Shown here: positions 33,516 through 50,223 of the stretch, one piece after another
Layout of the letters: each line of letters opens with the position of its first letter
How positions within the stretch are numbered: the first letter of the stretch is position 1
Source of the DNA: Embleya scabrispora DSM 41855
GTDB lineage: Bacteria > Actinomycetota > Actinomycetes > Streptomycetales > Streptomycetaceae
Assembly: GCF_000372745.1 (NCBI RefSeq)
Contig: NZ_KB889701.1
Location: forward strand, 1-55,172
Direction of reading: 5' to 3'
DNA length: 55,172 nt
Program-made: the position numbers and the translations under genes
The notes under the pieces: model-generated
Databases searched by the model: none
What the model saw: the letters and a program-made list of their open reading frames with translations, nothing else
What the model was told of the DNA's origin: nothing

Positions 33516-33823
33516 TCGCCGGCGCGGCGTCTCGGCAACGGCAGCCAACTGCCCCGACGGCCGCAGCGGTTCCACTTCCGAGTGGAACCGCTGCGGCCGT
33601 TGTTCGTATCTGGCCGATTCGGTTCCGCCACACTGCCCGATGGTGCATCGTGGAAGCCCGCACGGGGGTGCACGGGCATTGGCTGATAACGGTTCGGAAC
33701 CGAGCGTGTGCCAGTGATCGCGAACGGTGCCCGTAACCCCCCACGTTGCTGCTAGAAACGTTGCCGAATACCCGAGGTGTGCCTCGCGCCCGCGGGGCCG
33801 ACAGCAGGGGGGACGCCACTTTG
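33516..33823 (+). other. Leader region of the seven-gene vWA/tubulin-like system
   Basis: About 308 bp between rluB and the vWA gene. It holds the rluB terminator (33557-33600) and a perfect 13-base palindrome CGGTTC-G-GAACCG at 33690-33702, a possible operator. A weak promoter candidate, TTGCTG (33746-33751), 17 bases, TACCCG (33769-33774), would place the start of transcription about 40 bases before the vWA start. Confidence 0.4.
33557..33600 (+). terminator. Very strong hairpin terminator after rluB
   Basis: A perfect 20-bp stem (33557-33576 with 33581-33600) closes on a 4-base loop, followed by TGTTCG. It ends the parA-scp-rluB transcript and insulates the system that follows. Confidence 0.95.
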
Positions 33824-36199
33824 GTGCTGCCTGTCCGCCGGGGAGCGCCACGGCCGGCGCCCTCCACACGGCATCCACGACGGTTGGCCACCGCAGTTCT
33901 GCTCGGCGCGCTCGCACTGGCGCTGACCCCCGGCGCGGCCAGGGCGGCGGATCCCACGGTGGGGGATCCGAGCCTGAAGGTCGCGCCGATCTCGTACGCG
34001 GTCCTGGTCGACGAGTCCGGCAGCCTCAAGGGCGCCGATCTGGACCGGGAGAAGGACGCCGCCGCGCTGGCCGCGATCGGCGAACTCTCGCCGGAATCGC
34101 GGGTGGGGGTGATCGGCTTCGGCAGCGGCGCCGACGGGAAACCGCCGGTGGACGTGGTCTGCGAGCCGACCGCGGTGTCCGATCCGGCGGCTGCCCGGTG
34201 CGCCGACAAGCTGCACGCGCGCACCGACCAGGAGGGCAACAACACCGACATCCCGGCCGCGATCCGGCAGGGCGTGAGCATGCTGGCCAAGGCTCCCGCC
34301 GGGCAACCCAGGGTCCTGTTCGTGCTGACCGACGGCGCGATGGCGGTCGCGCCCGGCGAGGGCTACGGCAACGACGCCGCGCGCATCCCGGGTGAGCTGG
34401 ACAAGGGCCTGGGCACCGCACTGGCCCAGGCGAAGGCGGCGGGCGTACAGATCTGGCCACTGGGCTTCGGCAGCGCGATCGACGCCGCACAACTGGCCCG
34501 GATGGCGGATGGCGGCGCGCCGTCGATGTGCTCGGAACGGCCCGAGGACAAGCCCAAGGCGATCACGGTCAAGGACTCCGGTGAGGTCGTGCAGACCCTG
34601 CGCAGGGCGTTCGCGACCGCGCGCTGCGCGGGGGTGACCCAGACCGACTCGACCGAAGTGAACGGCGAGGCCGACCTGCACGTGACGATTCCGGCGATCG
34701 CCACCGACGTGGTCATCCAGGTGCAGAAGGCCAACGAGCGGATCGAGACCACGTTCTTCGACCCGGACGGCAAGCAGGTCGACAACGCGCCCGGCACCGA
34801 ACAGCGCGGGCAGGGCTCGCGGACCGAGACGCTGCGGATCACCGATCCCGTGGCGGGCAAGTGGCGGATCCACCTCAAGGCACCCGCCGGCTTCTCCGGA
34901 CCGGTCAGCGCGGCCGCGCTGTGGCAGGGCGTGGTCAAGTCCTACGTCCAGCTCAACCCGCCCCAGCCGAGCGCGGGCGAGTCGGTCAGATTCAGCGTCT
35001 TCCTGCAGACCCGGGAGAAGAACCTGACCGATCCGGCCGCGCTCAAGGGCGTCACGGTGTCGGGCCACGTCGAGGGACCCGGGCTCAAGGCGGACATCCC
35101 GCTCCGGCCCGGCGACAAGGGCGAGTTCTTCAGCGACTACAAGATCCCGGGCGACACCACCGGCCGGGTCGGCTTCACCGGCACGATCAGTGCACCGGGC
35201 GTGGCCGGCACCCGTGAGGTCAAGACGGTCACCCTCGGCGGGGGACCGGCCGCGGTCTCGGCCGAGATCAAGTGGGGCGACGGCACGATCGAACCCGGCG
35301 GCAGCGTCGCCGGCACCGTGTCCTGGAAGGTGAACGACGCCAAGCCGCACACGCTGCGGGTGGTCGCCGACTTCCCGGCGAACACCGGGCTGCGGATCAC
35401 CGGGGCCGAGCAGCGGGTCACGGCCGGCTCCGACAAGTTCGATTTCGAGCTCGCGTTCGGCAAGGACATCGCCAAGGGCGACCACACCGGCCGGGTCAGG
35501 GTGTTGGACACCACCGACGGCGACAAGGTGCTCTTCGAGACCACCCGCACGGTCACCGTCGAACCGCCGCCCGGCTTCTGGGACGAGTACCTGTGGCTGG
35601 TGATCGGGGGCGTCGTGCTGCTCGCGCTGCTGCTCGCACTGCTCGCCTTCCTCGCCAAGCGGCGCGGGCGGGCGCGTCGGATCGGACCGATCGCGCTGCG
35701 CCTGTACCGCGACGGGCAGCCGATCGGCGTGGAGACCCGGCCGCTGGACGAGCGCGCCGAGGCGATGTGGTTCCGGCTGGACACCACCGGCTTCCCGCCC
35801 CAGTTGATCCCGCTGTACCAGCACGAACCCGGAACCGCGTGGATCGTGCGGCGGACCGCGGCGACCGGCACTCTGGACGTGGAGACCCCGCTCGGCACCC
35901 ACCTGCACCTGGACTCGGGCCGGCCCACCGAGATCGAGCCCGGGCTCGCGCTCGGCTTCACGGACGACCGGGTCCACAACGCGGCGCCGCCGAGCGGGAG
36001 TTCCGGGTCGGGCGAGCCCTACAGCCCGTACGGCTCCGCCGCGCCCGCGGCCGCGCCCCCGCGGCCGTACGGCGAGGGAGCCTACGGATCCGACCAGCCG
36101 TACAACCCGTACGGTCCGTACGGCTCGGGACCCGCCGCGGATCCCGGAGCCGGCCCGGGCCCCGACGACACCACGTTCGGCTACGGACCCCCGCGCTAG
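33824..36199 (+). CDS. Secreted, membrane-anchored von Willebrand factor A protein
   Basis: The product is about 791 residues. A signal peptide with RR and a hydrophobic core (LATAVLLGALALALTPG) is probably cleaved after ARA at residue 41. The vWA domain (about 57-250) has an intact metal site: D63-E-S65-G-S67, Thr in NNTDIPAAI and Asp in VLTDG. Three to four beta-sandwich stretches follow outside the membrane. A single helix at about 590-612 (LWLVIGGVVLLALLLALLAFLA) leads to RRGRAR and a cytoplasmic beta-rich domain, then a tail of PYG repeats. A TTG three bases upstream is an alternative start; AGGGGGGA at 33806 serves either. It is the likely surface sensor or adhesion subunit of the operon. 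Confidence 0.88.
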   Translation: MLPVRRGAPRPAPSTRHPRRLATAVLLGALALALTPGAARAADPTVGDPSLKVAPISYAVLVDESGSLKGADLDREKDAAALAAIGELSPESRVGVIGFGSGADGKPPVDVVCEPTAVSDPAAARCADKLHARTDQEGNNTDIPAAIRQGVSMLAKAPAGQPRVLFVLTDGAMAVAPGEGYGNDAARIPGELDKGLGTALAQAKAAGVQIWPLGFGSAIDAAQLARMADGGAPSMCSERPEDKPKAITVKDSGEVVQTLRRAFATARCAGVTQTDSTEVNGEADLHVTIPAIATDVVIQVQKANERIETTFFDPDGKQVDNAPGTEQRGQGSRTETLRITDPVAGKWRIHLKAPAGFSGPVSAAALWQGVVKSYVQLNPPQPSAGESVRFSVFLQTREKNLTDPAALKGVTVSGHVEGPGLKADIPLRPGDKGEFFSDYKIPGDTTGRVGFTGTISAPGVAGTREVKTVTLGGGPAAVSAEIKWGDGTIEPGGSVAGTVSWKVNDAKPHTLRVVADFPANTGLRITGAEQRVTAGSDKFDFELAFGKDIAKGDHTGRVRVLDTTDGDKVLFETTRTVTVEPPPGFWDEYLWLVIGGVVLLALLLALLAFLAKRRGRARRIGPIALRLYRDGQPIGVETRPLDERAEAMWFRLDTTGFPPQLIPLYQHEPGTAWIVRRTAATGTLDVETPLGTHLHLDSGRPTEIEPGLALGFTDDRVHNAAPPSGSSGSGEPYSPYGSAAPAAAPPRPYGEGAYGSDQPYNPYGPYGSGPAADPGAGPGPDDTTFGYGPPR

Positions 36200-36277
36200 T
36201 GCCGTTGCAGTACCAGTCCCGGACGCGGGGGTCCGGGCACCTGAACTCGCACGTCACGCACTTTTCGAGGAGGGCCC

Positions 36278-39200
36278 GTGGCAGCGCAAGGCCGCAGGGG
36301 CATGTCCATCCACCAGTCCATGCTGTTCGTGGGCCTGGGCGGTACCGGATGTCTGATCGGAGCCGAACTCGAACGACGGCTGCGCGAGGAACTGTGCGGT
36401 GCCGACGGCACCGGCTTGATGCAGCGGCTCGGTGGCCAACTGGCCCCGTACCAACTGCCCAACTGCATCCAGTTCGTCTACGCCGACCTCAACGAGAACG
36501 AGTTGCAGCGCCAGCGGCTGCGTGCCGCGCCGCCCGCGCACCGGGCCGCCGCCGACCGCAACGCGCACCTGACCACCCAGCTGGTGCCGCCGCTGAACAC
36601 CTATCCCGAGGTGGCCCGTTCGTTGCGGATCAACGCGGCGGAGGAGACCATCCCGTGGTTGCCCGCCCGGGAGGGCGAGCCGCGGGTGACGCCGCTGCGG
36701 CGCGGCGCGGGGCAGTTGCCCACCGTCGGGCGCGCGGCACTGTTCGAGACCTTCCGGCACGGACTCGCGCCCGCGATGGACCCGTTGCGCCGCGCGGTCG
36801 GCCTGATCAGCAACGGCAACGACCACCTGATGGCGCTCAGCGGCAGCCAGAACAACCGCAACACGTGCGACGTGTTCGTCGCCTTCTCGATCGCCGGCGG
36901 CACCGGTTGCGGGATCTTCTACGACTACCTGCACCTGATCGGCGAGGCGTTCTCGCAGGGCTACGACGGGATCAAGATCTACCCGCTGGTGCTGATGCCG
37001 TCCGCGTTCGACGAGGAGCGCGGCGGCGGGCGACCCGCGGTGCTCAACGCCGGTCGTGCGCTGCTCGACCTGTTCCAACTGGTCGACGACCAGAACGGGC
37101 AGTACGCGCAGGAGGAACTCGACACCGGGCTCGGCGCGCCGGCGGGCAACCTGGCCGTGCGCTATCCCGGTCTGGAGTCCACCCGGCTCAAGGCCGGCAC
37201 CGTCCAGACCGGCTTCCTGTTCAGCCGCACCAGCGGGATCGAGCGCGAGGACCTGCACCGCTCGGTGGTGTCCCTGGTGATGTCGCTGATCGGCACCGGG
37301 CTCAACCCGGGTGGGCCCGAGTTGGAGAACGCGGTCATCCAGGGCGACCTGTACCAGTCGTTCGCGGACAGCTTCATCAACGAGGGGGTCCGCCGGGAGG
37401 TCCCGGCGCCGAGTGGGATCGGCGCCTGCGGGGTGTCCACCAGCCTGGTCGCCTCGATGACCGTACCGGTGGACGAACTCGCCGACATCGTCGCCGGCCG
37501 ACTGCTCGCCCAGGCCGTGCGCGATCTGACCTCGGACGTCCGGGTGTCCTCCGAGGCCAACCTGGAGCAGATCAAGTCCTTCATGTCGGTGTCCGGCCTG
37601 GGCGAACTGTGGCTGTGCGCACCGCCGCACGTGGCCGATCCGTCGCCGGCCAAGGGTGCGGCGGCCATCATGCAGGCGCTCAACGCGCGCACCCGGGCGA
37701 TGGAGCAGGCACTGCGCCAACAGGAGGCCCAACTGCGGGCGCACACCGCACAGTTGGCCGAGGAGTTCAACCACGCTCGCGGGATTCGACAACTGCTCGC
37801 CGACGGCGACCTGTTCCGGGCCCGCCGGGTGCTCTTCGGCGACCGGCGGCTGTACAGCGACACGGACCGGCCCGGGGTGGCCGGGCTGCTCGCGCACTGC
37901 AGCACCGAGCCGACGCCGCCGCCCGGGATCACCGTGAACGCGCCGCACATACCCGCGATCAAGGACCGCGCGGGCGGGGTGGTCAAGGCCAAGTGGGGCG
38001 ACCCCGAGGTGCAGCGCGCGCTGGGTGCGCAGCAGCAGTGGTTCGAGTGGCGGTCACGGCGCAACTGGCATGCCCAGTGGGGCGGTCAGGCCGAGGTGTG
38101 GGATCGCAGGATGATCTACCTGCGGCACGTCGTGGACGGCCTGGGGCAGGCGTTCAACGACCACCGCGACCAGGAGGAGGCGAACTTCGGCCGGGCCACC
38201 CGCGAGTTGTACCGCCAGCGCTCCGGGGTCTCCTACCTGCTGCCGCCGCAGGGCAACCTGGAGTCGTTCTACCGCCAGGTGTTGCGCCGCTTCGTGGACC
38301 GCGAGCGGCTGCCCGAGACGGCCGGCGCCGCGCAGATCGTCGGCAAGCTGCTCGGCGCGGGCATCTGGCAGCGCGCCTACGAGCTGGGCGAGGAGCGTGA
38401 GGGCGGCCCGGCCGCCGTCACCTACGTGCGCGACCAGATCAAGCAGCACGTCAAGACCCTGTTCGTGCAGGCAGGCGAACTCAACGCGCAGCCGCTGCTG
38501 CCGCCGGTGCGCGATCTGCTCACCCGCGCGGCGACCCGGCGCGGTGCCGCGGTGGGCGAGGAGGACCTCGAACAGTTCGTGCAAAAGCTCGCGGGCATGC
38601 TGCCCAACGGCTTCTCGCCCGAGGGCAGCGGCGAACTCAAGGTGCTGATCGCCCACCCGGGCACCTCGCACGACTCGGACGTGCGGCAATACCTGGAACG
38701 CATGCTGAACATCCCCAATGAGCCGTCCCGCAAGATCGAGTTCCGCGCGGTCGAGCAGGAGTCGATCGTGGTGGTGCTCTTCCGCAGCGCGATGAGCCTG
38801 ACCGAGGTGCCCGAGGTGCGCCAGGTGCTCGCGCAGTGGTCGCGCTCGCTGGACCGACAGGATCCGGTCGACTTCCTCAAGTGGCGCCAGCGGCTGGGCT
38901 TCACCTACGACTGGCTGGCCACCACCGAGGGTCATCGGGCGTACATCCTGCACCGGCTGCTGTGCGCGATGTGGAACGGGCAGGTCGAGGTCGCGCGTGG
39001 GGACCGGTCCTCGCCCGAGGTGATCGACATCCGGCTGCCGCACGGGCCGACCGTGATGAAGCTGCCGCTGCGCCCGTTCGACCGGGCCTCCTCGTGGGGC
39101 AGCCTGCTGCGCGCCTACGAGGAGTGGACGCTGACCGACGACGCCTCGGTGCGCCGGGAGTTCGCCAAGCAGCTGATGCTCACCTATCCCGAGGGCCTGG

Positions 39201-40300
39201 GCTCGCGGGTGCGCGAACCCTCGCCGCTGTACCGGCACTTCGTGCACGACGTCGCGCCGCGCCAGGTCAAGGTGCTCAAGGAACTGCGCGACCGGTTGCC
39301 GGAGCGCAGCCGGGGCTGGGCGGAGGAACTGCTGCGGCTGTGGCAGGTCACGCTGCCCGCCGCACTCGACCTGTCCTTCTCGCACCAGGGCGCCAACCGG
39401 GACTCGCTGCGCGAACTGGACCACGCCGAAAGGGCGGCGGACGACGACGAGGTGTTCGGCGGGCGCGGTGACGTGCGTGACCGGGGGCCGCGGGACCGGG
39501 ATCGGGACCGGAACGAGCGCGGCAGCGTGCGGGACCGGGATCAGGGTTGGGACGAACGCGGCAACGAGCGGCCTCGGCGGGCTGCCGAACGGGTGCGCGA
39601 CGACGACCGGGACGACCGTGACGACCGGGAGGAGTGGGCCGAGCGACGGGAGTCGCGACCGACGAGGCGAAATCGGGACGACCGGGATGACCGCGGCGAC
39701 CGCGGCGACCGGGAGTGGGAGCGGCGGGCCGGACGCGAGTCGGGTGGTCCGGTGTTCGACAAGGGCGACCCGGATCGGCGGGACGGCCGTGAGCCGAGGG
39801 AGCCGAGGGGCCCGCGGGCATGGCGGGACGAACAGGAGCGGGACGAGCAGGGCCCGAGCGGTCCGCGCGAGTGGCGCGACCGCGCGCCGCGTGACCCGCA
39901 GGAGTGGGGGCGGGTGCCCGAGTTGCCGGAGACCGGCGATCTGGGCCGGCCGAACCTGGACAAACCCGAGCGACGCGACCGCGGCCGAGACGATCGGGAC
40001 GGCCCGGACCGGCCGCCGGCCGCCGAGCGAGGGACCCGGCGGGAGCCGTACGACCCCTACGATCCGTACGACCCGGGGGAGTCGCGCGAGAACCGCGGGC
40101 CGCTGGGGACGCGGGGCGCGGGCGATCCGCACGACCCGTACCGGGCCCGCGACGCACGGGGCCCGTTCGACCCGCGTGACGGGGCCGGGCGCGACGACGC
40201 GGATCCCGAGGACCGCACGGTGCGGCTGGACGGCCTGGACCGGACCCTGCCGCTGCCGGACGAGCACGACGAGCGCGAGACGCCCGGGGGTGGCTGGTGA
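36278..40300 (+). CDS. Tubulin/FtsZ-like GTPase with long charged tail
   Basis: The product is 1340 residues. It opens MSMLFVGLGG-type text (GLGGTGC at 19-25, a Rossmann-like glycine loop) and has the tubulin signature SIAGGTGCGIF at 204-214, matching the GGGTGSG nucleotide loop. This fits the Tubulin_2-type proteins known from genomes only. A large helical middle of about 600 residues has no family I recognise. From about 1055 the protein is a disordered tail of Asp/Arg repeats (RDRDRDRNERG, DRDDRDDREEW) ending in PYDPYDPYDP. It probably forms filaments or a scaffold fuelled by GTP. AGGAGGG precedes GTG 36278. Its end overlaps the next gene as GTGA. Confidence 0.85.
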   Translation: MAAQGRRGMSIHQSMLFVGLGGTGCLIGAELERRLREELCGADGTGLMQRLGGQLAPYQLPNCIQFVYADLNENELQRQRLRAAPPAHRAAADRNAHLTTQLVPPLNTYPEVARSLRINAAEETIPWLPAREGEPRVTPLRRGAGQLPTVGRAALFETFRHGLAPAMDPLRRAVGLISNGNDHLMALSGSQNNRNTCDVFVAFSIAGGTGCGIFYDYLHLIGEAFSQGYDGIKIYPLVLMPSAFDEERGGGRPAVLNAGRALLDLFQLVDDQNGQYAQEELDTGLGAPAGNLAVRYPGLESTRLKAGTVQTGFLFSRTSGIEREDLHRSVVSLVMSLIGTGLNPGGPELENAVIQGDLYQSFADSFINEGVRREVPAPSGIGACGVSTSLVASMTVPVDELADIVAGRLLAQAVRDLTSDVRVSSEANLEQIKSFMSVSGLGELWLCAPPHVADPSPAKGAAAIMQALNARTRAMEQALRQQEAQLRAHTAQLAEEFNHARGIRQLLADGDLFRARRVLFGDRRLYSDTDRPGVAGLLAHCSTEPTPPPGITVNAPHIPAIKDRAGGVVKAKWGDPEVQRALGAQQQWFEWRSRRNWHAQWGGQAEVWDRRMIYLRHVVDGLGQAFNDHRDQEEANFGRATRELYRQRSGVSYLLPPQGNLESFYRQVLRRFVDRERLPETAGAAQIVGKLLGAGIWQRAYELGEEREGGPAAVTYVRDQIKQHVKTLFVQAGELNAQPLLPPVRDLLTRAATRRGAAVGEEDLEQFVQKLAGMLPNGFSPEGSGELKVLIAHPGTSHDSDVRQYLERMLNIPNEPSRKIEFRAVEQESIVVVLFRSAMSLTEVPEVRQVLAQWSRSLDRQDPVDFLKWRQRLGFTYDWLATTEGHRAYILHRLLCAMWNGQVEVARGDRSSPEVIDIRLPHGPTVMKLPLRPFDRASSWGSLLRAYEEWTLTDDASVRREFAKQLMLTYPEGLGSRVREPSPLYRHFVHDVAPRQVKVLKELRDRLPERSRGWAEELLRLWQVTLPAALDLSFSHQGANRDSLRELDHAERAADDDEVFGGRGDVRDRGPRDRDRDRNERGSVRDRDQGWDERGNERPRRAAERVRDDDRDDRDDREEWAERRESRPTRRNRDDRDDRGDRGDREWERRAGRESGGPVFDKGDPDRRDGREPREPRGPRAWRDEQERDEQGPSGPREWRDRAPRDPQEWGRVPELPETGDLGRPNLDKPERRDRGRDDRDGPDRPPAAERGTRREPYDPYDPYDPGESRENRGPLGTRGAGDPHDPYRARDARGPFDPRDGAGRDDADPEDRTVRLDGLDRTLPLPDEHDERETPGGGW

Positions 40301-42753
40301 CCGACTCCGTCGACGCGGGCGCGCCGCGCCCGCTGGTGGTCGTGGTCGACCTGCGCACCGAGTACGAAGCGGTCATGGCGGCCCGGCGGTTCGCCGACGT
40401 GCAGACCGCGTACGCGCGTACCCGGGTGCCCGCCGGCACCCTGAACGTGGCCGCCGACCGCGTGCTCGTGCTCGACTCCGTGGACGACCTGGTCGCCCAC
40501 CGGCGGGCGTACGAACGCATCTTCGGCGGCGACTACATCAAGGTCGTGTGCGTCGCGGTCGGCTCGCCCGTGGACGGCTCGATCGTGCTGCGCCGCCCGG
40601 GCCAACTCGTCGGCAGCGACGCGGCCACGCTGTGGGTCGGCGACGTCCGGGGCACCGACTGGGAGCCGGGCCGGGCGCCCGGGACCACCCTGCGGCCGGA
40701 CGACGCCGACGCGCTCGCCCCGCTGGTCGACGTGCTCACCCAGCCCGAGGTGTTCGATCACGTGCTCGCCGGGGTGACCGAGATGCCCCGCTCGATCGCG
40801 GCGCCGGGGCTGAACGCGTTCGTGCACCGGATCCGCGACGACGCGGTACAGCGGGCCCGGATCCGCGCGGCGCAGCGGCTGGTCGGTGCCGAGGGCGGCG
40901 TCGACGAACCGTGGCCCGAGCCGCTCGCGGCTCTCGCCGACAACCAGGGCACCGGGCTCGCCGCGGTCGGCGGCGGCATCCGCGAATGTGTGCGCGCCGA
41001 CAGCCCTCTGGGTGCCCGGTGGGCGCACGTCGACCAGGGCTTCGGGCAGGCGCAGCGGCGTCTGTCGCTGCTGGCCGGCCCACTCGCGCTGTACGGCTCG
41101 GCCGGCCGCGACGGGCGATCGATCCACGATCAGGTCGTCGACTCCGCGACCGCGCTGGGTGAATACCGGGACCTGGTCCGGCAGACCGTGGGCCAGGGCA
41201 CGGCCGGCTTCGACGCGGACGCGCGGGCCTGGCTGGACCAGATCGGCGTGCTGATCCCGGAGCCGCCCGGACTGAGCGTGACCTCGGTGGCCGCGGCGCT
41301 GCGCGAGCGCACCGCCGCCGCCTTCGACCGACCCGAGGGGTTGCGCGGACTGGCCGAGAGACTGCGCGAGTTGGCCGACCGGGTCGGTCCGGGCGCGGGC
41401 GCCTCGCGGGCGTTCGAGGTGGATCAGACCTGCTCGGACGGCTTCCTCGGGCACTACCTGCGCCCGGCCGCGTTCCCGCTCGGTCCGGCCCACATCGGGG
41501 TCGTCGGCGGGCTCCTGGTCGGCTCGTTCCTGACCGCGCTGTGGCCCGCCTTCGCGGTGGTCGGCGCCACCCTCGCGGTGCTGCTCGCGGTGTTCGGGTC
41601 GACCCTGATCGCGCTGCGCCGCCCCGACCGCGGGGGCGGCGCGATGCTGCCCGCCGAGGCGTTGTCGATGATCGTGCCGGCCGGCCTGGTCGCGCTGATC
41701 GGCGCGGTCGGCGGAGTGCTCGCCGGGCGCGCGTGGGGGCCGCCGACCGGCGTCGGCCCGCTCGCCCTCGTGCTCGGCCTGGCCGTGCTCGTCGTGCTGC
41801 CCGGGGTGGACTGGACGGTGCGGGTGCGGCGCTGGGAGCGCACGCTGGCGCTCGGCGCGGCCGGTCGGGCGCTGCACGCACTGCACGCGCTGCTCGTCCG
41901 CACCGTGTGGAACGACTGGGCACTGGCGGGTCCGCGCCGTGAGGCGGTGGACCGGGCGATCGTGCTGGCCGCGCTGCTGGAGGAGAGCGCCAAGGTGCTC
42001 GCCGAGGACGCGACCGCGATCGAGCGGCAACTCGTGCGTGAGCCGGCCGGTCCCGAGCCGACCCCGACGGGATACGACACCGGCAGCCCTTTGCCGCCCG
42101 GTCGGCCCGCACCGCCCTCGACGCCGCCGCCGAGCGCGGGCCCGAGTCTGTACGACGTCGTGCTCGGCGACCTGGTGGACGGGCTGCATGCCGCGTTCGA
42201 ACCGATGTGGTCGCTGCTCGAAGGGGATCCGGCGGAGGCGTCCCGGCAGGGCGCGGAACGCGAACTGCGGCGCGTGTTGCGCTCGTACGCCGACCACCTC
42301 GCCCACCACGGAGTCCAGGCCGCGCCGCCGTTCGCACGTCGCAGGAAGGACCGCCCGCATGTCGGCAACACGGCCGGCGGCGACGCGGACCGGATCGCCG
42401 GACTGCTCGCCCTGCCCGCGGACCGGTCCATGCTGCAACTGTGCGCGACCGACCAGTTGATGCTGCTCGACCACGTCCCCACGCACATTCGCAGTGTGCG
42501 CTTCGCGCCGCGCGGGGTGCGCCCGGCCGTCCGCGAGGCCCTGCGCGAGCGCGGCGACGGGCAACTCGTGGACCACGAGCTGGTGTGGACCGGGGCCGGC
42601 CGGATGGCCGGGGTGCTGCGCCTGCTGCCGCTGCTGCCGGGTTCGGTGGACGACGCGCGGATGTGGGAGGAAAGCGTCGACGGCGCGCCGGGCGGTGGCC
42701 CGGACCACGCGGGCGGATCGGCTGCCCGCCGCGACGACGGACGGGCCTCGTGA
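40297..42753 (+). CDS. Four-helix membrane protein of the tubulin-like system
   Basis: The product is 818 residues. A soluble N-terminal part of about 395 residues starts with an alpha/beta segment (RPLVVVVDLRTEYEAVMAARR, VLVLDSVDDLV). Four membrane helices lie at about 399-440 (two), 456-480 and 487-505. A helical C-terminal part with a Pro-rich linker (PPSTPPPSAG) follows. I do not recognise a named family. GTGA overlaps with both neighbours show strict co-expression. It is well placed to tether the tubulin-like protein to the membrane or to pass signals from the vWA subunit. Confidence 0.8.
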   Translation: MTDSVDAGAPRPLVVVVDLRTEYEAVMAARRFADVQTAYARTRVPAGTLNVAADRVLVLDSVDDLVAHRRAYERIFGGDYIKVVCVAVGSPVDGSIVLRRPGQLVGSDAATLWVGDVRGTDWEPGRAPGTTLRPDDADALAPLVDVLTQPEVFDHVLAGVTEMPRSIAAPGLNAFVHRIRDDAVQRARIRAAQRLVGAEGGVDEPWPEPLAALADNQGTGLAAVGGGIRECVRADSPLGARWAHVDQGFGQAQRRLSLLAGPLALYGSAGRDGRSIHDQVVDSATALGEYRDLVRQTVGQGTAGFDADARAWLDQIGVLIPEPPGLSVTSVAAALRERTAAAFDRPEGLRGLAERLRELADRVGPGAGASRAFEVDQTCSDGFLGHYLRPAAFPLGPAHIGVVGGLLVGSFLTALWPAFAVVGATLAVLLAVFGSTLIALRRPDRGGGAMLPAEALSMIVPAGLVALIGAVGGVLAGRAWGPPTGVGPLALVLGLAVLVVLPGVDWTVRVRRWERTLALGAAGRALHALHALLVRTVWNDWALAGPRREAVDRAIVLAALLEESAKVLAEDATAIERQLVREPAGPEPTPTGYDTGSPLPPGRPAPPSTPPPSAGPSLYDVVLGDLVDGLHAAFEPMWSLLEGDPAEASRQGAERELRRVLRSYADHLAHHGVQAAPPFARRRKDRPHVGNTAGGDADRIAGLLALPADRSMLQLCATDQLMLLDHVPTHIRSVRFAPRGVRPAVREALRERGDGQLVDHELVWTGAGRMAGVLRLLPLLPGSVDDARMWEESVDGAPGGGPDHAGGSAARRDDGRAS

Positions 42754-43835
42754 GCACGGCGGGAGCGCCCGGGCGGCCGGGCGAGTCCGGGGAGGAGAAG
42801 CTCGGATACACCGACCCCGAGGGTCGATCGGTGGAGCGCCGCGTCGAGTTCGGCCCGGACCGACCGGCCGCTTCGGGCCGTCCCTTTCGCATCCGCGACG
42901 TTCGGGACGTGGAGGACGGCAGCACGTTCGTGCAAAAGCGGCTCGCTCCGCTGGACGCGCGGCGCCGGATCGGCGCGGAGGCGGGCCTGGAGACCGAGAT
43001 CCGGGTGCTGCTGCGGCTCGCGCGCACGTTCGGGCCGGCCGACCATCCGCGCGAGCTGGCCCGCATCGCCGGGCACGACTTCGACGGCGTCGAGCCGTTC
43101 CTGCTGCTGGAGGCGGTGCCCTGCCCGCCCGCCGAGGATGTGGTGGGCAAGTTGCTGACCGAGGAACAGGACGCCTTTCGGCGTGCGCTCTTTCGCACCG
43201 TCCGCCACCTGGAGACGGCCGGTGTCGTGCACGGCGACCTGACCCCCACCAGCGTGCGCTGGCAGCGCGAGCAGCGCCGGCTGTACATCGCCGACTTCGA
43301 CCACGCCGCACTCGCGGGCGAGCCCCGCAGCAGCCTGGGCACCGCGCTGTGGGCCGCGCCGGGCCCACTGCGCGGACCCGGACCCGCCGACCCGCGCGAC
43401 GATCTGTGGTCGGCCGCCCAGGTCGCCTACCACGTCACCGTCGGCCGCCCGGTTCGCCAGGGCATGGTTCCGGCCGGGGTGGAGAGCCAGGGTCTGCTGT
43501 TCGACCTGTTCCAGGGTGTGTTCGAGACGGACCCGCAGCGTCGACCGAGCGCGGCGGAGCTGCTGCGCCGGCTCAACGAACCGGACCCGTACGTGCATGG
43601 CCACGCCCACTACGACCCGCTCGCCGAGGGCCGGCGCGGCTACGAGGCGGCCCTGCAGCGCAAACGGCAGCGCATGCCCCTGGCGGGCCAACCGGCGCCG
43701 CCGGCCGCCCCCGACGCCCCGCCGTCCGCCTTCGTCCCACCGCCGGGCGGCGTCCCGCCCAAACCGGCGAACCCGCCGGTCACCGAGCCGAGGCCGGGCC
43801 GGTTCCGGCTCTTCGGAAAGAACCAACCGAGTTGA
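42750..43835 (+). CDS. Compact protein kinase-like protein
   Basis: The product is about 361 residues. FVQKRLAP near 52 carries the likely VAIK-type lysine and GLETEIRVL the pairing Glu. The catalytic loop is VVHGDLTPTSV with H161 and D163, where HRD has become HGD. The metal motif is ADFDHA with D182, where DFG has become DFD. DPRDDLWSAAQVAYHV matches the helix F Asp. The fold is thus complete but non-canonical, so activity is likely though not certain. A Pro-rich tail of about 60 residues ends in a basic RFRLFGKNQPS. The GTG at 42750 overlaps the preceding stop. Confidence 0.82.
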   Translation: MSTAGAPGRPGESGEEKLGYTDPEGRSVERRVEFGPDRPAASGRPFRIRDVRDVEDGSTFVQKRLAPLDARRRIGAEAGLETEIRVLLRLARTFGPADHPRELARIAGHDFDGVEPFLLLEAVPCPPAEDVVGKLLTEEQDAFRRALFRTVRHLETAGVVHGDLTPTSVRWQREQRRLYIADFDHAALAGEPRSSLGTALWAAPGPLRGPGPADPRDDLWSAAQVAYHVTVGRPVRQGMVPAGVESQGLLFDLFQGVFETDPQRRPSAAELLRRLNEPDPYVHGHAHYDPLAEGRRGYEAALQRKRQRMPLAGQPAPPAAPDAPPSAFVPPPGGVPPKPANPPVTEPRPGRFRLFGKNQPS

Positions 43836-43860
43836 ACGCGACGGCAGGTGAGGTCGGCTG

Positions 43861-46002
43861 ATGTTGCATCAGATCGTGTACCGCTGGGACCCCGACGGGT
43901 TGCTCGGGCGCCGCGGCATCGTCCCGGTCGCCACGTCCCTGGGCCGCGACGACCTCTTCGGCTGGCACACCCGCACCCGGCTGGCCGACGCGGTCACGAT
44001 GGACTACGGCGACCCGGCCTGCCCGGCCTCCAGCGTGTGTCTGCTCGACACCCCGCTGGGCGTCGCGCTGGTGCGTCGCGCGTTCACCGCCGACGCTCGC
44101 CGGCAGCGGCTGAACAACTCCGCGCACGTCCTGGTCGGCCCCCGGGACAGCATCGCGCCGTTCGACGCCATCGCGTGGGGCTCGCTGGAAGCGCGGGCCC
44201 CCGGCGCGCTCGACCCGGACCGGGTCCCGGCCGGTTACGGCCTCAAGCCGCTCGCCGACGAGCGGCTCGCCGAGGCGTTCGAACTCGCCGCCGGCGGCCT
44301 GCACGAGCGGGCCCGCCGGCTCGGCGACCCGCTGGAGGTGTTCACCGCCGCGGTGCTGCGCCGGCCCCGGGCCAAGGTGGCCCTGCTGCCGGCCACCGCC
44401 GAGGACGCCACGGCGCTGCTGTGGGGCCTGCAACACCTGCTCACCGCGCTACTGCCGGGGCCGTGGACGTTCTCCACGTTCGAGGTCGACGACACGGCCC
44501 CCGATCCCAAGGGCGCACCCCGCTTCATCACCCTGCCCCGGGGGCCCGGTAGCGGGCCCGGGACCCGGGTGCGGGTCGATCTGACCGGCCGCGACGAGCC
44601 GTTCGACGCGTATCGCGAACTCGCCCGGCGCATGGTGAAGCACTACGTGGGCGAGGGATGGGCGGGTTTCCACCGGCTGCTCAACGTGCCCACCGAGGTG
44701 CACACGATGCCCGAGGCGACCCGGGTGGAGGAGATCCGGGGCCGGTTGGACGCGCTCGGCGCCCGCCAGGAGGCGCGGACCAAGCCGCGCACGCCGCCCG
44801 GGACCCGCTCCGAGCCACCGCCGGAGGAGGGCACCCGACAGACGCCCCGCGTGCCACCCCAGGCGCCGCCTCCCGGCGCCCAACCGACCGCCGCCCCGGC
44901 GGCCGGTCCCATCGACCCGAATCGACCCGAGGTGCGCTGCCCCTACTGCCTGGACCTGATCCGGTGGAACGAGAACGATCTCTACGAGCGCGACGAACGG
45001 CTGCGCTACGAACGGGTGAACCTGAGCACGGTCACCGACCCGGTCAAGCGGCACGACCGGCTGCGCGCGACCTTCATGCGCTGCCCCAACCCGGCCGGGG
45101 ACGAGGAGCGCGAGCACTACCTGCCGACCAACTACCTGATCCACGAACCGCCGCTGGTGATCGGGCTGATCGGTGACGGTCTCTCCGGCAAGACGCACCT
45201 GCTCGCCGCGATGATCGCCGAGATCGACGCCGGCGGGTTGCGTCCGTACGGCGTCACGCATCAGCCGGTGGACCCCGATCAGCATCAGGACTACCTGCGC
45301 AACCGGGTCGACCCGCTCCAGCGCGGGACCATGCTCGCGACCACGGTCAACCACCAGGGCAACCTGGTGCAGTTCGCCGACGCGCTGCTGCTGCGCTCGG
45401 CCGGCCGGACCCGGCCGATCGCGTTCTTCGACGTCAGCGGCGAGGACTTGGCCAGGGGTGGCCGGGAGATGCAATTCCTGGCCGCTGCCGACGCGTTCGT
45501 CTTCGTGGTGGACCCGGTGGTGGCGGTCGACCTGCCGGAGTTGCGCAGGCTCACCGGCGACGGCGACGATCCACCCGGTACGCGCCGGGGCGACCGGACG
45601 TTCGCCGCGGTGATGGACCGGCTGCCGCGTACGGCCGAGTTGCTCGGCCAGCCGGTCGCGGTCGCGGTGACCAAGTCCGACCTGATCCGGTTCGAGCCGC
45701 CCGTGGACGCCTGGTTGGGCTCGCAGCCGCCCAAGCCCGGACGGTTGGATCCGGCGAGGGTGGCCGCCGAGAGCCGCGACGTGTACTCCTTCCTGTACGC
45801 CCACGACGCGGTGGCCTGGCTCAGTCCGTTCGAGGAATTCCGGCGCTGCACGATGCACTTCGTGTCGGCCACGGGCGCCCGGGACCGGGACGGCCGCTTC
45901 CCCGGCGGCATCCGGCCGCGTCGTGTTCTCGAACCCGTCGTGTCGATCCTGGCGATGTGCGACATGCTCGATCAGGCCGGGGTCGAGCGCGTGGGGGTGT
46001 GA
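43861..46002 (+). CDS. Three-part protein: GAP1-like N-module, zinc-ribbon-like segment, P-loop GTPase
   Basis: The product is 713 residues. The N-terminal module (about 1-290) starts HQIVYRWDPDGLLGRRG and contains LNNSAHVLVGP and PGPWTFSTFEVDD. It is shared with the next two genes. After a Pro-rich linker, C360-PY-C363 and C408 suggest a zinc-ribbon-like knuckle. The GTPase domain has GDGLSGKT (438-445), DVSGED (D524, G527) and TKSD (604-607), the G1, G3 and G4 motifs. I recall families called GTPase-associated protein 1 and double-GTPase with this arrangement. GGTGAGGT precedes ATG 43861, 25 bases after the kinase gene. Confidence 0.85.
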   Translation: MLHQIVYRWDPDGLLGRRGIVPVATSLGRDDLFGWHTRTRLADAVTMDYGDPACPASSVCLLDTPLGVALVRRAFTADARRQRLNNSAHVLVGPRDSIAPFDAIAWGSLEARAPGALDPDRVPAGYGLKPLADERLAEAFELAAGGLHERARRLGDPLEVFTAAVLRRPRAKVALLPATAEDATALLWGLQHLLTALLPGPWTFSTFEVDDTAPDPKGAPRFITLPRGPGSGPGTRVRVDLTGRDEPFDAYRELARRMVKHYVGEGWAGFHRLLNVPTEVHTMPEATRVEEIRGRLDALGARQEARTKPRTPPGTRSEPPPEEGTRQTPRVPPQAPPPGAQPTAAPAAGPIDPNRPEVRCPYCLDLIRWNENDLYERDERLRYERVNLSTVTDPVKRHDRLRATFMRCPNPAGDEEREHYLPTNYLIHEPPLVIGLIGDGLSGKTHLLAAMIAEIDAGGLRPYGVTHQPVDPDQHQDYLRNRVDPLQRGTMLATTVNHQGNLVQFADALLLRSAGRTRPIAFFDVSGEDLARGGREMQFLAAADAFVFVVDPVVAVDLPELRRLTGDGDDPPGTRRGDRTFAAVMDRLPRTAELLGQPVAVAVTKSDLIRFEPPVDAWLGSQPPKPGRLDPARVAAESRDVYSFLYAHDAVAWLSPFEEFRRCTMHFVSATGARDRDGRFPGGIRPRRVLEPVVSILAMCDMLDQAGVERVGV

Positions 46003-46003
46003 G

Positions 46004-47983
46004 ATGGCGTCGGAGACCGGAGCGGACGAGCGGGATCCGCTGGATCAGGTCGTGTATCGCTGGAGCTACGGGGATCTGTTCGGTGGCCAGGGCATGGGCC
46101 CGGTCGCCGCCTCGCTGGACCGCGAACGGCTGCGGGAATGGGACCGGGGCCTGAACAGCCATGTCTCGATGGACCGTTCGCTGCCGGAGACCCCCGACTG
46201 GAGCATGTGCCAGGTGCACCTGCCGGGGGACCGGCATGCGCTGATCCTGCGCGAGGCCGCGATCCACGCCAGCAACCGGCCCGGCAACAACGCGCACGTG
46301 CTGCTCGACCCCGAGCGGATGATCCGGCCGCACACCATGCTGGCGGCCGTATGGCTGCACGACCGGTACGACGGCGGGCTGACCGGATCGGGGATCCCGA
46401 GCCTGGACGTGCGCGAAGACGTGGCGCTGGGTGGGGTGTCGATCCGCCCGGAGGCGTACCGCGTCGACGTGCACGAGACGATCCGCGCCCAGGCGCGGGA
46501 GCATGCGGAACTGGTCGAAGTCGTGCTCGCGGCGGTGATGCGCAACGAGGGGCAGAAGTTCACGCTGCTCACGGAGCATGTCGGTGAAGGCATCGTGCCC
46601 GTGCTGTGGGGGGTGTTCGATCTGGCCCGGTGGGTGGCGCCGGGAGGCAGGACCTTCTCCACGTACGAGACCAGCGACGCGGCGATGAAGCCGAGCTTCG
46701 TGCTGGTGCCGCGCTGGCCCAATACCCCGGAGCCGGCGAACCGGGTCCGGATCGTCCCGGCCGCCGAACCGGGGCAGGACGTGTTCCGGCTGGCCGCACG
46801 GATCCTGGTGCGGCGCTACTGCGAGTGGTCGTGGGAGGAGATGCTGGGCACGCTGCGGGAGCTCAACGACGCGGTCGGGACCCATGCGTCGAACCCGGAG
46901 CGGGCCAACCACGTGCTCGAACCCGCCCGTGGGGCCACGCCTGCGGTGCCGGCGACCGGCCGGGTGTCGCGGGACGACCCGGCGGGTGAGGTGGACAGCC
47001 CGGTCGTGGGGTGGTCGAAGCTGGGGTATTCGCAGGACCTCCAGACGACCGAGTACACGGACACCTGGACCCAGGAGCACGACGAACACGACGAACACGA
47101 CGAATACGATGCGTATGACGAACACGATGAACAGGGCGAGTCGGGCGAATACTTCGATCCGGACGCGCCGGATCGGGCGGGTGCCTACGACGCGCGTGCC
47201 CGGCGGGACGCCCCCACGGCGGGGGGCTCGGGCGGTGCGTCCGCATCGTGGGCGGACTGGATCGGCAGCGGTCCGATCGTGCCCGGGCCGACGCGTCCCG
47301 ATCGGCCGACGACTCCGGCGGGGTCGACCCGCCGCGAGGCCGGCGGGTCGACGAACCGTCCCGAACTTCCGCAGGACACGCCGGCTCGGTCCGCGCGAGG
47401 CAGGTGGGACTGGGACGCGTGGGACGACTTGACGGCGACCTGGGACGGATTCGTGGCGCTTGGGCAGGCCGCCGAACAGATGGCCGAGGACGGCCGGGAG
47501 ACCCGCCGGGTCGGCAAGGCGATCGATCGGGCCGACACCGGATCGCTCGCGGTCGCACTGCTGCTCGTCGAGCGGCCACTGCTCGAAGCGGTGGTGCGAA
47601 GCCTGGCCGTCCGGGTCGATCGCGAGTACGCGAATCCGCGGCGTGAATGGCGCTCCCTGCGTGCCTACGCCGAGGTGCTCGGACGACTGCACGAGGGCCT
47701 CGCCGCCGTGGCCGGCTGTCGGCTGGAGGAGGACGTGCTGCACGCCCTGTTGTGGAAGATGACCCGGATGGTCGCCGAGGACAGCGATCGGTTCCCGTAC
47801 TTCGTCGCCGGCGTCGCGGGCACGGTCATGCGGCTTCGCACGTTCGACGGAGAGTGGGCGCGGTATCAACGCGTCCTGGTGGACGCGATGTCGGCCACCG
47901 ACTGCTATGGGCCGTTCCAGCGCGAATGCGGTCGGCTCCTGATCGAGGAACTCGGCATCACGCCATACAGGATGGAAGCGTAG
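46004..47983 (+). CDS. Second GAP1-like module protein with helical C-terminus
   Basis: The product is about 659 residues. The N-terminal module matches the previous gene's: QVVYRWSYGDLFGGQG, NNAHVLLDPERMIRP, LWGVFDLARWVAPG and RTFSTYETSDAAMKPSF. An acidic linker follows with a run of DEHDEHDEYDAYDEHDE coded by a 9-base repeat, and then a helical C-terminal domain of about 180 residues (SLAVALLLVERPLLEAVVRSL, ARYQRVLVDAMSATD). No GTPase motif is present. It begins one base after the GTPase gene's stop (ATG 46004) and probably works with it. Confidence 0.82.
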   Translation: MASETGADERDPLDQVVYRWSYGDLFGGQGMGPVAASLDRERLREWDRGLNSHVSMDRSLPETPDWSMCQVHLPGDRHALILREAAIHASNRPGNNAHVLLDPERMIRPHTMLAAVWLHDRYDGGLTGSGIPSLDVREDVALGGVSIRPEAYRVDVHETIRAQAREHAELVEVVLAAVMRNEGQKFTLLTEHVGEGIVPVLWGVFDLARWVAPGGRTFSTYETSDAAMKPSFVLVPRWPNTPEPANRVRIVPAAEPGQDVFRLAARILVRRYCEWSWEEMLGTLRELNDAVGTHASNPERANHVLEPARGATPAVPATGRVSRDDPAGEVDSPVVGWSKLGYSQDLQTTEYTDTWTQEHDEHDEHDEYDAYDEHDEQGESGEYFDPDAPDRAGAYDARARRDAPTAGGSGGASASWADWIGSGPIVPGPTRPDRPTTPAGSTRREAGGSTNRPELPQDTPARSARGRWDWDAWDDLTATWDGFVALGQAAEQMAEDGRETRRVGKAIDRADTGSLAVALLLVERPLLEAVVRSLAVRVDREYANPRREWRSLRAYAEVLGRLHEGLAAVAGCRLEEDVLHALLWKMTRMVAEDSDRFPYFVAGVAGTVMRLRTFDGEWARYQRVLVDAMSATDCYGPFQRECGRLLIEELGITPYRMEA

Positions 47984-47985
47984 CC

Positions 47986-50223
47986 ATGACGGCACGGGCA
48001 TCGCAGCCGCGAGGGGACCATCCGCCGACCGCTGCCGACGCGGACGGGTTTCGGCAGATCGTCTATCGACGCCAGGACGACAGCCTGCTCGGCGGACGTG
48101 GCCTGGGGCCGATCGCCTCCTCGGTGTCCCGGGACGAACTTCTCTCCTGGCACGACGACTTGCGCGAGCACGTGGCGGTCGACGTGGACGACCGCGGCGC
48201 GCCGGTGACCAGTGTCGCGCTGGTGCACACCGGTCGGGGCGCCGCGGTGATCCGGCGCGAGTACGTGGTCGAGGGCAACAACGCGCGCGTCCTCCTCGAC
48301 CCGGGCCGCGACCTGGGCCCGCATCGCGCGCTGGTGCTCACCCAGGACGCGGTGTGGGCGGAGGAGGCGGCCCTGGAGGACATCCCGCGCGGCTATGGCC
48401 TGGCCCCGATCGCCCGGGACTTCGTGGAGGCCGCGCTGGACGGCAACGCCGAACGGCTGCGCGGGCGGGCCCGTGACCAGGCACACCTGCTGGAGGTCAC
48501 GGTGGCCGCGGTGCTGCGCCACCCGAGCCGCTTCTTCTCGTTCCGGCAGGCGGACGTCGGGATCGACCCGGTGCCGGTGCTGTGGGGGCTCGCCGATCTG
48601 CTCCCGCGGCTGGTTCCGGGGGCGTTCACGTTCTCCACGTTCGAGACGTTGGCTCACTCGGCCAAGCCGAGGTTCGTGGTGCTGCCGCGCCGGCCGCGGG
48701 ACGCACAGCCGTGGGCGGGTCGGTACGGATTGCTGGTGCGGGAGGAGCCCAAGTCGGGTTCGGATGTGCACGCGCACGCGGCCGGGCTGCTGGTGAGCCG
48801 GTACGTCGACACCGACTGGTCGGGTGTCCACCAACTCCTGGAGGGCATGCTCGACCTGCGTCGGTTCCCGCACGAGCGGGCCGAGGAGCGGTCCCGGGAG
48901 ATCTGCACCCGGTTGAGCCGGTGGATCGCCGCGCCCCGGGTGTCGGGCGCCGAGATCGCGGCACCAGGAGCGGAGCGGGCTCCCGAACCGGCGCCGTCGG
49001 CCACCCCGGCGCCGGGCCGGGCGGAGCGGCCGGAGCGCAACGCATCGATCGAACGGGCTGCGCGGGCACGACGGGTCGAACCGGTTCAATCAGTCGAACC
49101 GGTCGAACCGGTCGAATCGGTCGAGCGCGCCGGGCGGGCCGGGCAAGCGGAGCGGGCCGGGCGGGTGGAGCACGCCGGGCGCGTCGAGCGGGCCCCGCGC
49201 GAGCCGCGGGTGGTCACCGTGGCGGGGGCCGCCGAGGAGGAGCCGGCCTTCCCGTACGCGGCGGAGCCGGCCCGGACCACGGTCTCCGCGAAGGAGCGGG
49301 TGCCGCGCCCGACGGTGGCCGCCGAGGCGCCGCCGGAGCCGGTGCGGGCGAACGAACCGGTGCGGGCGACCGAGCCGGTGCGCCCGGTCGAGCCTGCCGA
49401 GCCGGCCGAGACTCCGGACGTGATCTGGTACGCCGACGACGGCGCGGTGTTCGAGGAGATCGAGGACGCCTTCACCGGGCCGTGGCCGGGCTTCGAGGAG
49501 GAGCGCGGCGAACTGCCGATACCCGCGCTGCCACTCACCGAGGACGACCCGGACGCAGCTCCGGACACCGACCCGGATCGCGAGGCCGGCGGCGCGACGG
49601 GGAGCCCGCCGACCCCGGGCACGCTGCCCGCCAGCGCCCGGAACGCGCCGTGGAGTTCGTGGGCCGAGTACGGCATCCCGGACACCGAGGTGGACAAGAT
49701 ACGGCGCGCGGTCAAGCGCCTGCCGGACAAGCCCACGCTGCGCGAACGCGCGCTCGGCGGCGGCGCGGCCAAGACCGAGGTCGCGGGCATCGACAACATC
49801 GTCACGCTCGCGGTCGCGCTGCGGCTCGCCGACCTGCGGGTGTTGCCGGTGATCGCGGATCGGCTGACCACGCGCCTGGAACAGCGCCGCCGGCAGCTCG
49901 CGCCGGAGGCGTGGAACCCGGACGACCTGCGGGCGATGCGCGAAACCCTGCTGGACGCCGAGCAGTTCGGCGACCGCCTGGAAGCGGCCGGCGCGGGCGA
50001 CAAACGCACCCGTAAGCTCCTCGAACAACTGCTCGTGGTGGTGCTGGCACCCAAGACCGACACGAAGGGCGTGTTGCGCCAGATCGCGATCTGCGTGCTC
50101 TCCGATCGCCGGGACCGGTCGCCGAACCCGCTGATCGAGGAGATTCTACTGAACTCCCAATGGGGCGAGGACTTCCGCACCGAACTCGGGCGCCGCTGGG
50201 CGGAGCAGAACCCACCGCGCTGA
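47986..50223 (+). CDS. Third GAP1-like module protein with helical C-terminus
   Basis: The product is about 745 residues. The N-terminal module again reads QIVYRRQDDSLLGGRG, GNNARVLLDPGRDLGP, LWGLADLLPRLVPG and AFTFSTFETLAHSAKPRF. The linker of about 200 residues is Ala/Glu/Arg/Pro rich with VEPVEPVESVE-type and RAGRAG-type repeats. The C-terminal domain of about 180 residues is helical (IVTLAVALRLADLRVLPVIADRL, RKLLEQLLVVVLAPKTDT). It starts two bases after the preceding stop, with GGATGGAAG upstream of ATG 47986. It is the last gene of the system. Confidence 0.82.
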   Translation: MTARASQPRGDHPPTAADADGFRQIVYRRQDDSLLGGRGLGPIASSVSRDELLSWHDDLREHVAVDVDDRGAPVTSVALVHTGRGAAVIRREYVVEGNNARVLLDPGRDLGPHRALVLTQDAVWAEEAALEDIPRGYGLAPIARDFVEAALDGNAERLRGRARDQAHLLEVTVAAVLRHPSRFFSFRQADVGIDPVPVLWGLADLLPRLVPGAFTFSTFETLAHSAKPRFVVLPRRPRDAQPWAGRYGLLVREEPKSGSDVHAHAAGLLVSRYVDTDWSGVHQLLEGMLDLRRFPHERAEERSREICTRLSRWIAAPRVSGAEIAAPGAERAPEPAPSATPAPGRAERPERNASIERAARARRVEPVQSVEPVEPVESVERAGRAGQAERAGRVEHAGRVERAPREPRVVTVAGAAEEEPAFPYAAEPARTTVSAKERVPRPTVAAEAPPEPVRANEPVRATEPVRPVEPAEPAETPDVIWYADDGAVFEEIEDAFTGPWPGFEEERGELPIPALPLTEDDPDAAPDTDPDREAGGATGSPPTPGTLPASARNAPWSSWAEYGIPDTEVDKIRRAVKRLPDKPTLRERALGGGAAKTEVAGIDNIVTLAVALRLADLRVLPVIADRLTTRLEQRRRQLAPEAWNPDDLRAMRETLLDAEQFGDRLEAAGAGDKRTRKLLEQLLVVVLAPKTDTKGVLRQIAICVLSDRRDRSPNPLIEEILLNSQWGEDFRTELGRRWAEQNPPR

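Follow-up and report, generated by a model that had tools for sequence, protein, structure and literature searches.

We analysed a 55,172-nt stretch of high-GC DNA (the window) from the 11.4 Mb genome of Embleya scabrispora DSM 41855, in which seven genes on the + strand (g1 to g7) occupy positions 33824-50223 between rluB and tyrA (Table 1). The first-pass annotation, made from the sequence alone, had described these genes as one system running in a single direction with GTGA overlaps or gaps of 1-78 bp. The gene coordinates bear out this layout: GTGA start/stop overlaps join g2 to g3 (40297-40300) and g3 to g4 (42750-42753), and the other intergenic gaps are 78, 25, 1, and 2 bp. The seven genes extend a conserved cassette in which genes for a von Willebrand factor A (vWA) protein, a tubulin-like protein, a protein with four transmembrane (TM) helices, a kinase-like protein, a TRAFAC GTPase, and a GAP1-like protein follow one another in this order.

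Table 1. Features of the g1-g7 locus in the window and GAP1 gene pairs of the sister genus (positions of the latter are those of the loci named; aa, amino acids)
Feature	Position	Strand	Description
rluB	32529-33515	+	Upstream flanking gene
Inverted repeat	33557-33600		Perfect 20-bp arms, 4-nt loop, 3' of rluB; boundary or terminator-like stem
g1, vWA protein	33824-36199	+	PF13519, 2e-10; vWA, ectodomain, one TM, cytoplasmic domain, P/G/Y-rich tail
g2, tubulin-like protein	36278-40300	+	Tubulin_2 (PF13809), 1.2e-63; domain at 36323-37522
g3	40297-42753	+	818 aa; N-terminal alpha/beta domain, long helices, C-terminal domain
g4, kinase-like protein	42750-43835	+	PF00069, 4.1e-9
g5	43861-46002	+	GAP1-like (~43861-44760), zinc ribbon (~44938-45084), TRAFAC GTPase (DO-GTPase2-like; PF19993, 1.5e-8)
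g6, GAP1-like paralogue	46004-47983	+	C-terminal half diverging fast
g7, GAP1-like paralogue	47986-50223	+	C-terminal domain strongly conserved
Degenerate direct repeats	50215-50469		g7-tyrA interval
tyrA	50526-51611	-	Downstream flanking gene, followed by cytidylate kinase
GAP1 pair, L215	11352-15714		Sister genus; beside tyrA
GAP1 pair, L216	7308-11471		Sister genus; between rluB and tyrA
GAP1 pair, L217	4918-9548		Sister genus; between rluB and tyrA

Named genomes were scanned with an alignment of 11 tubulin sequences, and the best 80 of 205 relatives, all with actinobacterial titles, were combined with the window and 13 loci of the family. After removal of four duplicates (L061, L062, L067, and L135), 90 distinct loci remained, 70 of them with full flanks. 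The vWA gene lies immediately 5' of the tubulin gene in 69 of the 70 full loci, and the 4-TM gene lies immediately 3' of it in all 70. Within the four co-directional genes downstream of the tubulin gene, a kinase-like gene and a GTPase gene are found in 70/70 loci and a GAP1-like gene in 66/70; in the four loci without a recognised GAP1 (L069, L077, L123, and L126), the slot is taken by an unmatched gene of 569-830 aa in three cases and by a 244-aa gene in L123. The recurrence of this gene order in 66-70 of 70 loci from several actinobacterial families is far beyond chance, and it supports the proposal of a single NTPase gene set that is conserved, co-occurs, and is linked to the membrane. In the family, Tubulin_2 is found in 14 of 121 genomes, 13 of them in the cassette context.

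A sample of 197 genomes of the class contains Tubulin_2 in 10 genomes, including that of the window, and g3 matches in at least 9, at least 7 of which are full-length; the best five first-look candidates per genome were scored for g3, so weak relatives may be missed. The first-pass annotation had named scattered homologues as evidence against a single system, and the pattern found is a different one, as each of the seven full-length g3 matches adjoins the tubulin match of its genome. Only short and weak g3 pieces are present in G157 and G271, and G235 has an extra weak pair on another contig. For the remaining tubulin-containing class genomes, the G286 locus has a direct GAP1-N2 match and the G220 locus has other neighbours; neighbourhoods were read in all but G193 (L172), for which the high-GC gene caller gave no genes. 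The alignments used below comprise the window with 50 of 68 listed g3 sequences and with 34 of 65 listed GTPase sequences, and the trees were built on chosen subsets (52 GAP1 rows, 45 GAP1 rows with the sister genus, and 39 tubulin rows).

The first three genes carry well-conserved sites and motifs of membrane topology. The g1 protein, whose start codon is ambiguous (GTG at 33824 or TTG at 33884), begins with a hydrophobic stretch resembling a signal peptide and contains a complete vWA metal site and a single C-terminal TM helix. The metal-site residues are retained in nearly all of the 88 aligned homologues (D/S/S in 87 and T/D in 88), consistent with the signal peptide and metal site first annotated. 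In line with its annotated tubulin signature, g2 matches Tubulin_2, the one such match in its genome, and its GLGGTG and AGGTGxG GTP-loop motifs are invariant in the 11 tubulin sequences. A long conserved part follows the Tubulin_2 domain, with conserved residues up to ~1040, and the protein ends in an R/D-rich tail of 282 aa that is poorly conserved even inside the genus. A PDB sequence search with the tubulin profile gave no match at E<=0.01. The hydrophobic stretches of g3 (~aa 398-504) are consistent with the four membrane helices predicted earlier. The AlphaFold2 model of g3 is confident, with a mean predicted local distance difference test score (pLDDT) of 86.9; the protein matches no known family, and we leave its fold unnamed because a fold search of the PDB was empty at E<=0.001.

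The annotated kinase catalytic loop of g4 is only partly intact. The Embleya protein has a kinase fold and retains the Lys, the Glu, HGD, and DFD/DFG, and thus both catalytic Asp residues, but the metal-binding Asn is replaced by Ser. Among 78 distinct cassettes (89 rows, from which 8 non-cassette rows and 3 duplicates were removed; the G031 copy, truncated at a contig end, is outside the count), the HRD catalytic Asp is missing in 74 and kept in 4 (the window, G004, G020, and L031). Both catalytic Asp residues are kept in three of the 78, all Embleya (G004, G020, and the window), and the DFG Asp, the Lys, and the alphaC Glu are present in 24, 13, and 74 cassettes, respectively. Because catalytic residues are lost in most cassette kinases, the conserved role of g4 is more likely scaffolding than phosphorylation, and the phosphorylation step is not supported in the form in which it was first proposed. 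The Embleya g4 protein itself may be active as a kinase. A separate protein kinase of 649-657 aa with intact catalytic motifs is encoded in three Embleya-type genomes (L058, 9202-11151 on the - strand; L059, 6929-8902; L060, 8834-10807); its C-terminal part matches the GAP1-like module of g7, and in G004 and G020 the gene and the cassette are ~60 kb apart.

The PF19993 match of g5 is above the cut-off, and the G1, G3, and G4 residues, which had been recognised by eye, are invariant in 35 aligned GTPases. The Walker B motif of g5 reads FDVSGED, with the conserved Glu itself outside both the invariant and the 90% lists of these sequences. C360, C363, and C408 are invariant in the same 35 sequences, and we infer that they form a zinc ribbon before the GTPase domain. 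One or more zinc ribbons precede the GTPase in 60% of the DO-GTPase/GAP1 systems predicted by Kaur, Burroughs, Iyer and Aravind (2020, eLife 9:e52696; PMC7159879). A structural model of g5 (mean pLDDT 74.9) returns GTPase folds in a fold search.

The triplicated GAP1-like module proposed for g5, g6, and g7 lies below the Pfam cut-off, yet it is recovered by profile comparison. No Pfam GAP1 model exceeds its cut-off on g5-g7, the best being GAP1-M in g5 (0.057). When 94 modules from the cassettes were compared by hhalign with 21 canonical GAP1-N2/M modules, the probability was 93-95% over 223-225 columns, and four control profiles gave <1% in both directions. Homology of g5N (the N-terminal module of g5), g6, and g7 to canonical GAP1 is therefore supported as a distant one that covers the N/M part only. 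GAP1 stands for GTPase-associated protein 1, not GTPase-activating protein (PMC7159879), and the name is not used here to imply GTPase activation. The gene for the kinase-like part is fused to that of the GTPase in 29 of the 70 full loci and GAP1 is fused to the GTPase in 8, which points to a physical partnership of these proteins. A GAP1 module ahead of the GTPase with one further GAP1 also occurs in five non-Embleya loci (L080, L081, L083, L102, and L108), and since the modules of these loci fall outside the Embleya clade, the GAP1-GTPase fusion probably arose more than once.

Three GAP1 copies are found only in Embleya, where three Embleya-type records have them on one contig and G031 across two contigs. 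The sister genus, whose tyrA is 78-80% identical and the next closest after those of the window's genus, has related genes at the same site: in G018 and G029 two adjacent GAP1 genes occupy the rluB-tyrA interval, and in G001 a pair of GAP1 genes sits beside tyrA, with rluB outside the 20 kb read. The 20-kb stretches around these pairs contain no other cassette gene, and the G018 and G029 genomes have neither a GTPase-profile match nor a tubulin match, while G001 has a separate cassette elsewhere. The sister-genus GAP1s and the Embleya g5N, g6, and g7 modules group in a single clade (15 rows, 100/99), the inner order of which the tree does not settle, and for this reason a triplication confined to Embleya was dropped. 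Among 30 tyrA loci, four of them from the window's genus, 8 have rluB only 499-1238 bp from tyrA, too near for a cassette or a GAP1 pair, and in the remaining loci no rluB is found within the 1.5 kb read.

The seven contiguous, co-directional genes may have come about by the joining of a widespread cassette and a GAP1 pair, as G018 and G029 keep the pair without the rest. It is a real possibility, somewhat on the doubtful side, that the locus unites two historical units, namely the tubulin/vWA/GTPase cassette and a resident rluB-tyrA pair (g6-g7) able to work alone. The isolated pairs and their shared clade with the Embleya modules argue for such a history. However, g5, g6, and g7 of Embleya look co-transcribed because they are spaced by 1-2 bp and the GAP1 module of g5 belongs to this clade too, the pattern is accounted for just as well if the sister genus lost the upstream genes, and one-to-one orthology does not emerge inside the clade.

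In a comparison of the window with G004, the ratio of nonsynonymous to synonymous substitution rates (dN/dS) is 0.08-0.16 in rluB, tyrA, cmk, and der; the values of g1-g5 and g7 are 0.24-0.37, and that of g6 is 0.67. The identity of g6 between Embleya-type species is 42-51%, rising to 91% between the closely related G004 and G020; the last four 50-aa blocks of the g7 C-terminal domain are 93-98% identical to those of G004 and G020. In the tubulin tree, a branch (99) separates the 18 Streptomycetaceae rows from the rest, and the sister-genus cassette clusters with Streptomyces and Wenjunlia, not with Embleya. The cassette resembles an accessory system that has long been resident and is often lost, rather than a fast-moving island. 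Two genes between g7 and tyrA of G004 (L034, 3945-5508), which are missing in the window and have counterparts of the same sizes after g7 in G020, encode a YCII-domain protein and a sigma factor; on these Pfam matches they were rejected as effector cargo.

At the edges of the locus, the stem annotated before the genes is a perfect inverted repeat, but a terminator role is not borne out, as a T-run is absent and the terminator scan made no call for 33557-33600; the degenerate repeat annotated after the genes corresponds to the direct repeats of Table 1. An Rfam search of the whole window gave no match, and the NCBIfam matches among the window genes are confined to the kinase domain of g4 and lie below the cut-off. 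The gene past the cytidylate kinase gene is taken to be der; we assigned the labels scpA, scpB, and der from the usual gene order. About 7 kb before the cassette, a + strand gene (24547-26694) encodes a STAND-like protein with a weak NB-ARC/AAA match and TPR repeats, possibly another signalling or conflict gene.

The upstream side of the cassette in relatives frequently encodes a membrane effector. Pycsar consists of the PycC cyclase and the PycTM effector. Five genes just 5' of the vWA gene in family loci pass the PycTM cut-off (Pfam PF18967, 2.8e-13 to 3.8e-19), and with a local profile PycTM is found upstream in 28 of the 67 loci that have at least 5.5 kb of upstream sequence (loci with <5.5 kb were excluded). 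Among loci with a readable fusion state, PycTM is present in 22/23 loci with a fused kinase-GTPase gene and in 1/37 unfused loci. In the excluded short-flank family loci, PycTM occurs in L024, L026, L027, and L031 (fused) and in L032 (unfused) and is not found in L025 (fused); L032 and L138 have PycTM with an unfused kinase-GTPase. In Streptomyces-type loci, PycTM is usually preceded by a gene of 350-590 aa and then by genes of ~850 and ~280 aa. In four of the five loci L024, L026, L027, L031, and L032, PycTM is paired with a 360-480 aa protein of one family, which is possibly a new PycTM partner. An alignment of 25 of the 29 listed rows of this upstream family, provisionally called SPF, gave one chance-level PDB sequence match and scattered single matches in Pfam (FloA, 0.24, in 1/25), and its SPFH-like label is an impression by eye, unconfirmed by Pfam or PDB. 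The upstream partner proteins scanned in Pfam gave no cyclase match. A CHAT-like gene, with a match below the cut-off (0.0014), occurs in one further locus, and the rluB-g1 interval of the window contains no PycTM, partner, or CHAT-like gene.

Because hhalign links the modules to canonical GAP1-N2/M, we assign the cassette a kinship to the DO-GTPase/GAP1 systems, which Kaur et al. predicted to act in conflict (PMC7159879) and which are the nearest known kind. The kinship to predicted conflict or immunity gene sets suggested at first thus holds as a distant relation. In the tubulin theme of those systems, a single tubulin with a C-terminal helical part accompanies a membrane vWA protein with FNIII repeats and a beta-rich domain, in actinobacteria together with a second FNIII protein fused to HRDC, and genomes with this theme are said to exclude VMAP systems (PMC7159879). 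The cassette shares with the GAP1-N2 tubulin theme Tubulin_2, a membrane vWA protein, a zinc-ribbon TRAFAC GTPase, and GAP1, and L170, a locus with a direct PF20013 (GAP1-N2) match, likewise begins with vWA and tubulin genes. The similarity of L170 to the cassette profiles is at the detection limit (tubulin 6e-5, vWA 3e-5, GTPase 4e-15; g3, kinase, and GAP1 0.02 or worse). Unlike that theme as described, the cassette is silent for PF20013, adds g3 and a kinase-like gene, and coexists with VMAP-C. No HRDC or FNIII match at E<=1 in Pfam was found in the seven proteins, g1 having the vWA domain, the TM helix, and a conserved C-terminal domain.

Since VMAP-C is present in 11 of the 14 genomes that have a tubulin (in 10 of 13 if only cassette genomes are counted, G006 being the non-cassette genome; in 79 of the 107 others), the exclusivity towards VMAP fails for the cassette. 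In L033, a lone gene (2556-7511) whose 1651-aa product is tubulin-like in its C-terminal part has a VMAP-C match ~1.6 kb before it and looks like a VMAP-type system with tubulin as its effector.

The kinase theme combines an active kinase with PP2C and does not overlap the tubulin theme (PMC7159879). With this theme the cassette shares a kinase-like gene beside the DO-GTPase and GAP1, whereas it joins tubulin and kinase-like genes in 70/70 loci, has a mostly degenerate kinase, and gives no PP2C match among the seven genes. With Pycsar it shares PycTM beside many Streptomyces cassettes, but the scanned upstream proteins show no cyclase match and the seven genes include no PycTM. With the VMAP and MoxR-vWA ternary systems it shares vWA as a regulatory component, but neither MoxR nor VMAP is among the seven genes. 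The cassette thus differs from the themes described by Kaur et al., whose set may already include some of its members. Such systems were met in the literature only as predictions, with no experimental study in the titles and abstract openings of the matches listed; a 2024 paper states that a DO-GTPase family protein is predicted to have a role in membrane-related stresses (PMC11237479).

Taken together, we tentatively place the cassette among the tubulin-containing DO-GTPase/GAP1 systems, as a diverged and accessory subtype that would form a membrane-anchored, GTP-switched surveillance assembly, a reading that we consider plausible but short of probable. The vWA ectodomain of g1, with its conserved metal site, would bind a ligand or peptide outside the membrane, and g1 and the 4-TM protein g3 would relay the signal to the cytoplasm. 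The TRAFAC GTPase, with its intact motifs, could be docked to the GAP1-like modules and set an on/off threshold. The tubulin-like g2 protein would then assemble at the membrane, scaffolded by the kinase-like protein; phosphorylation is probably not a conserved step, given the loss of the catalytic Asp in most relatives. In many Streptomyces versions the likely output would be the adjacent PycTM membrane effector, and in the window the extra GAP1 modules or an effector encoded elsewhere would stand in for it. The conflict role is proposed because of the kinship to the predicted systems and the PycTM neighbourhood, and the patchy presence of Tubulin_2 in the family (14/121) also speaks for the accessory reading.

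Several results weigh against a surveillance role. PF20013 matches neither g5-g7 nor any other part of the genome; it matches 12 of 121 family genomes and occurs together with tubulin only in G027 and G031, there on a distant stretch or another contig. PADLOC on the seven genes gave only kinase-domain matches to g4 (best 1e-9), and Pfam and PADLOC found no PycTM, pyrimidine cyclase, or other recognised effector among them. The PycTM link is partial: no PycTM is seen in L098 and L025, which are fused, or in L068, L101, and L129, which are unfused Streptomyces loci. Tubulin_2 is present in 4/4 genomes of the window's genus at one site, the tubulin tree largely follows taxonomy, and the g2 core is 87-100% identical per 50-aa block to residue 1000 among Embleya-type genomes. 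The dN/dS is <1 in every gene, with the top values in g6 (0.37-0.67), which is not arms-race-like and led us to reject positive selection.

These last results would suit a developmental or cell-envelope machine, in which the tubulin organises hyphal membrane or wall zones under a surface vWA protein without any immunity function. Constant presence at one site in the genus, purifying selection on all genes with a strongly conserved tubulin core, and the taxonomic signal of the tubulin tree are in its favour, as are the many named hosts that belong to hyphal genera. We nevertheless judge it rather unlikely, since Tubulin_2 is found in just 14/121 genomes of the family, the cassette neighbours differ among loci (for example, arginine deiminase in L109 and a helicase in L101, given as examples and not as a systematic count), PycTM stands beside many Streptomyces cassettes, and the GAP1 and GTPase modules are related to predicted conflict systems. 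A GTP-regulated surface export or secretion-linked apparatus with the vWA protein and g3 as its envelope part is very improbable: g1 and g3 span the envelope and the g5 model has a weak Foldseek match to TagF (9t0n, E 7.8e-4, TM-score 0.17/0.29), but this match, whose aligned region was not displayed, ranks 27th behind ordinary GTPases, and no secretion ATPase or channel is recognised among the seven genes.

A bolder version of the surveillance reading is that, in a machine widespread among actinobacteria, a transmembrane vWA receptor steers a tubulin-like polymer through the GTPase, GAP1, and a pseudokinase scaffold, that in Streptomyces this fires a membrane-disrupting PycTM, and that the immunity signal is borne by tubulin rather than by a diffusible nucleotide; we regard this as distinctly improbable at present. 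Should the surveillance assembly prove true, the NTP-driven conflict systems predicted in multicellular bacteria would gain a distinct subtype, one in which tubulin is coupled to a receptor at the surface and, in many Streptomyces, to a known membrane effector. The cassette offers testable points in tubulin assembly, pseudokinase scaffolding, and PycTM triggering, and the GAP1 pair that the sister genus keeps without the GTPase would be a natural experiment on GAP1 alone.

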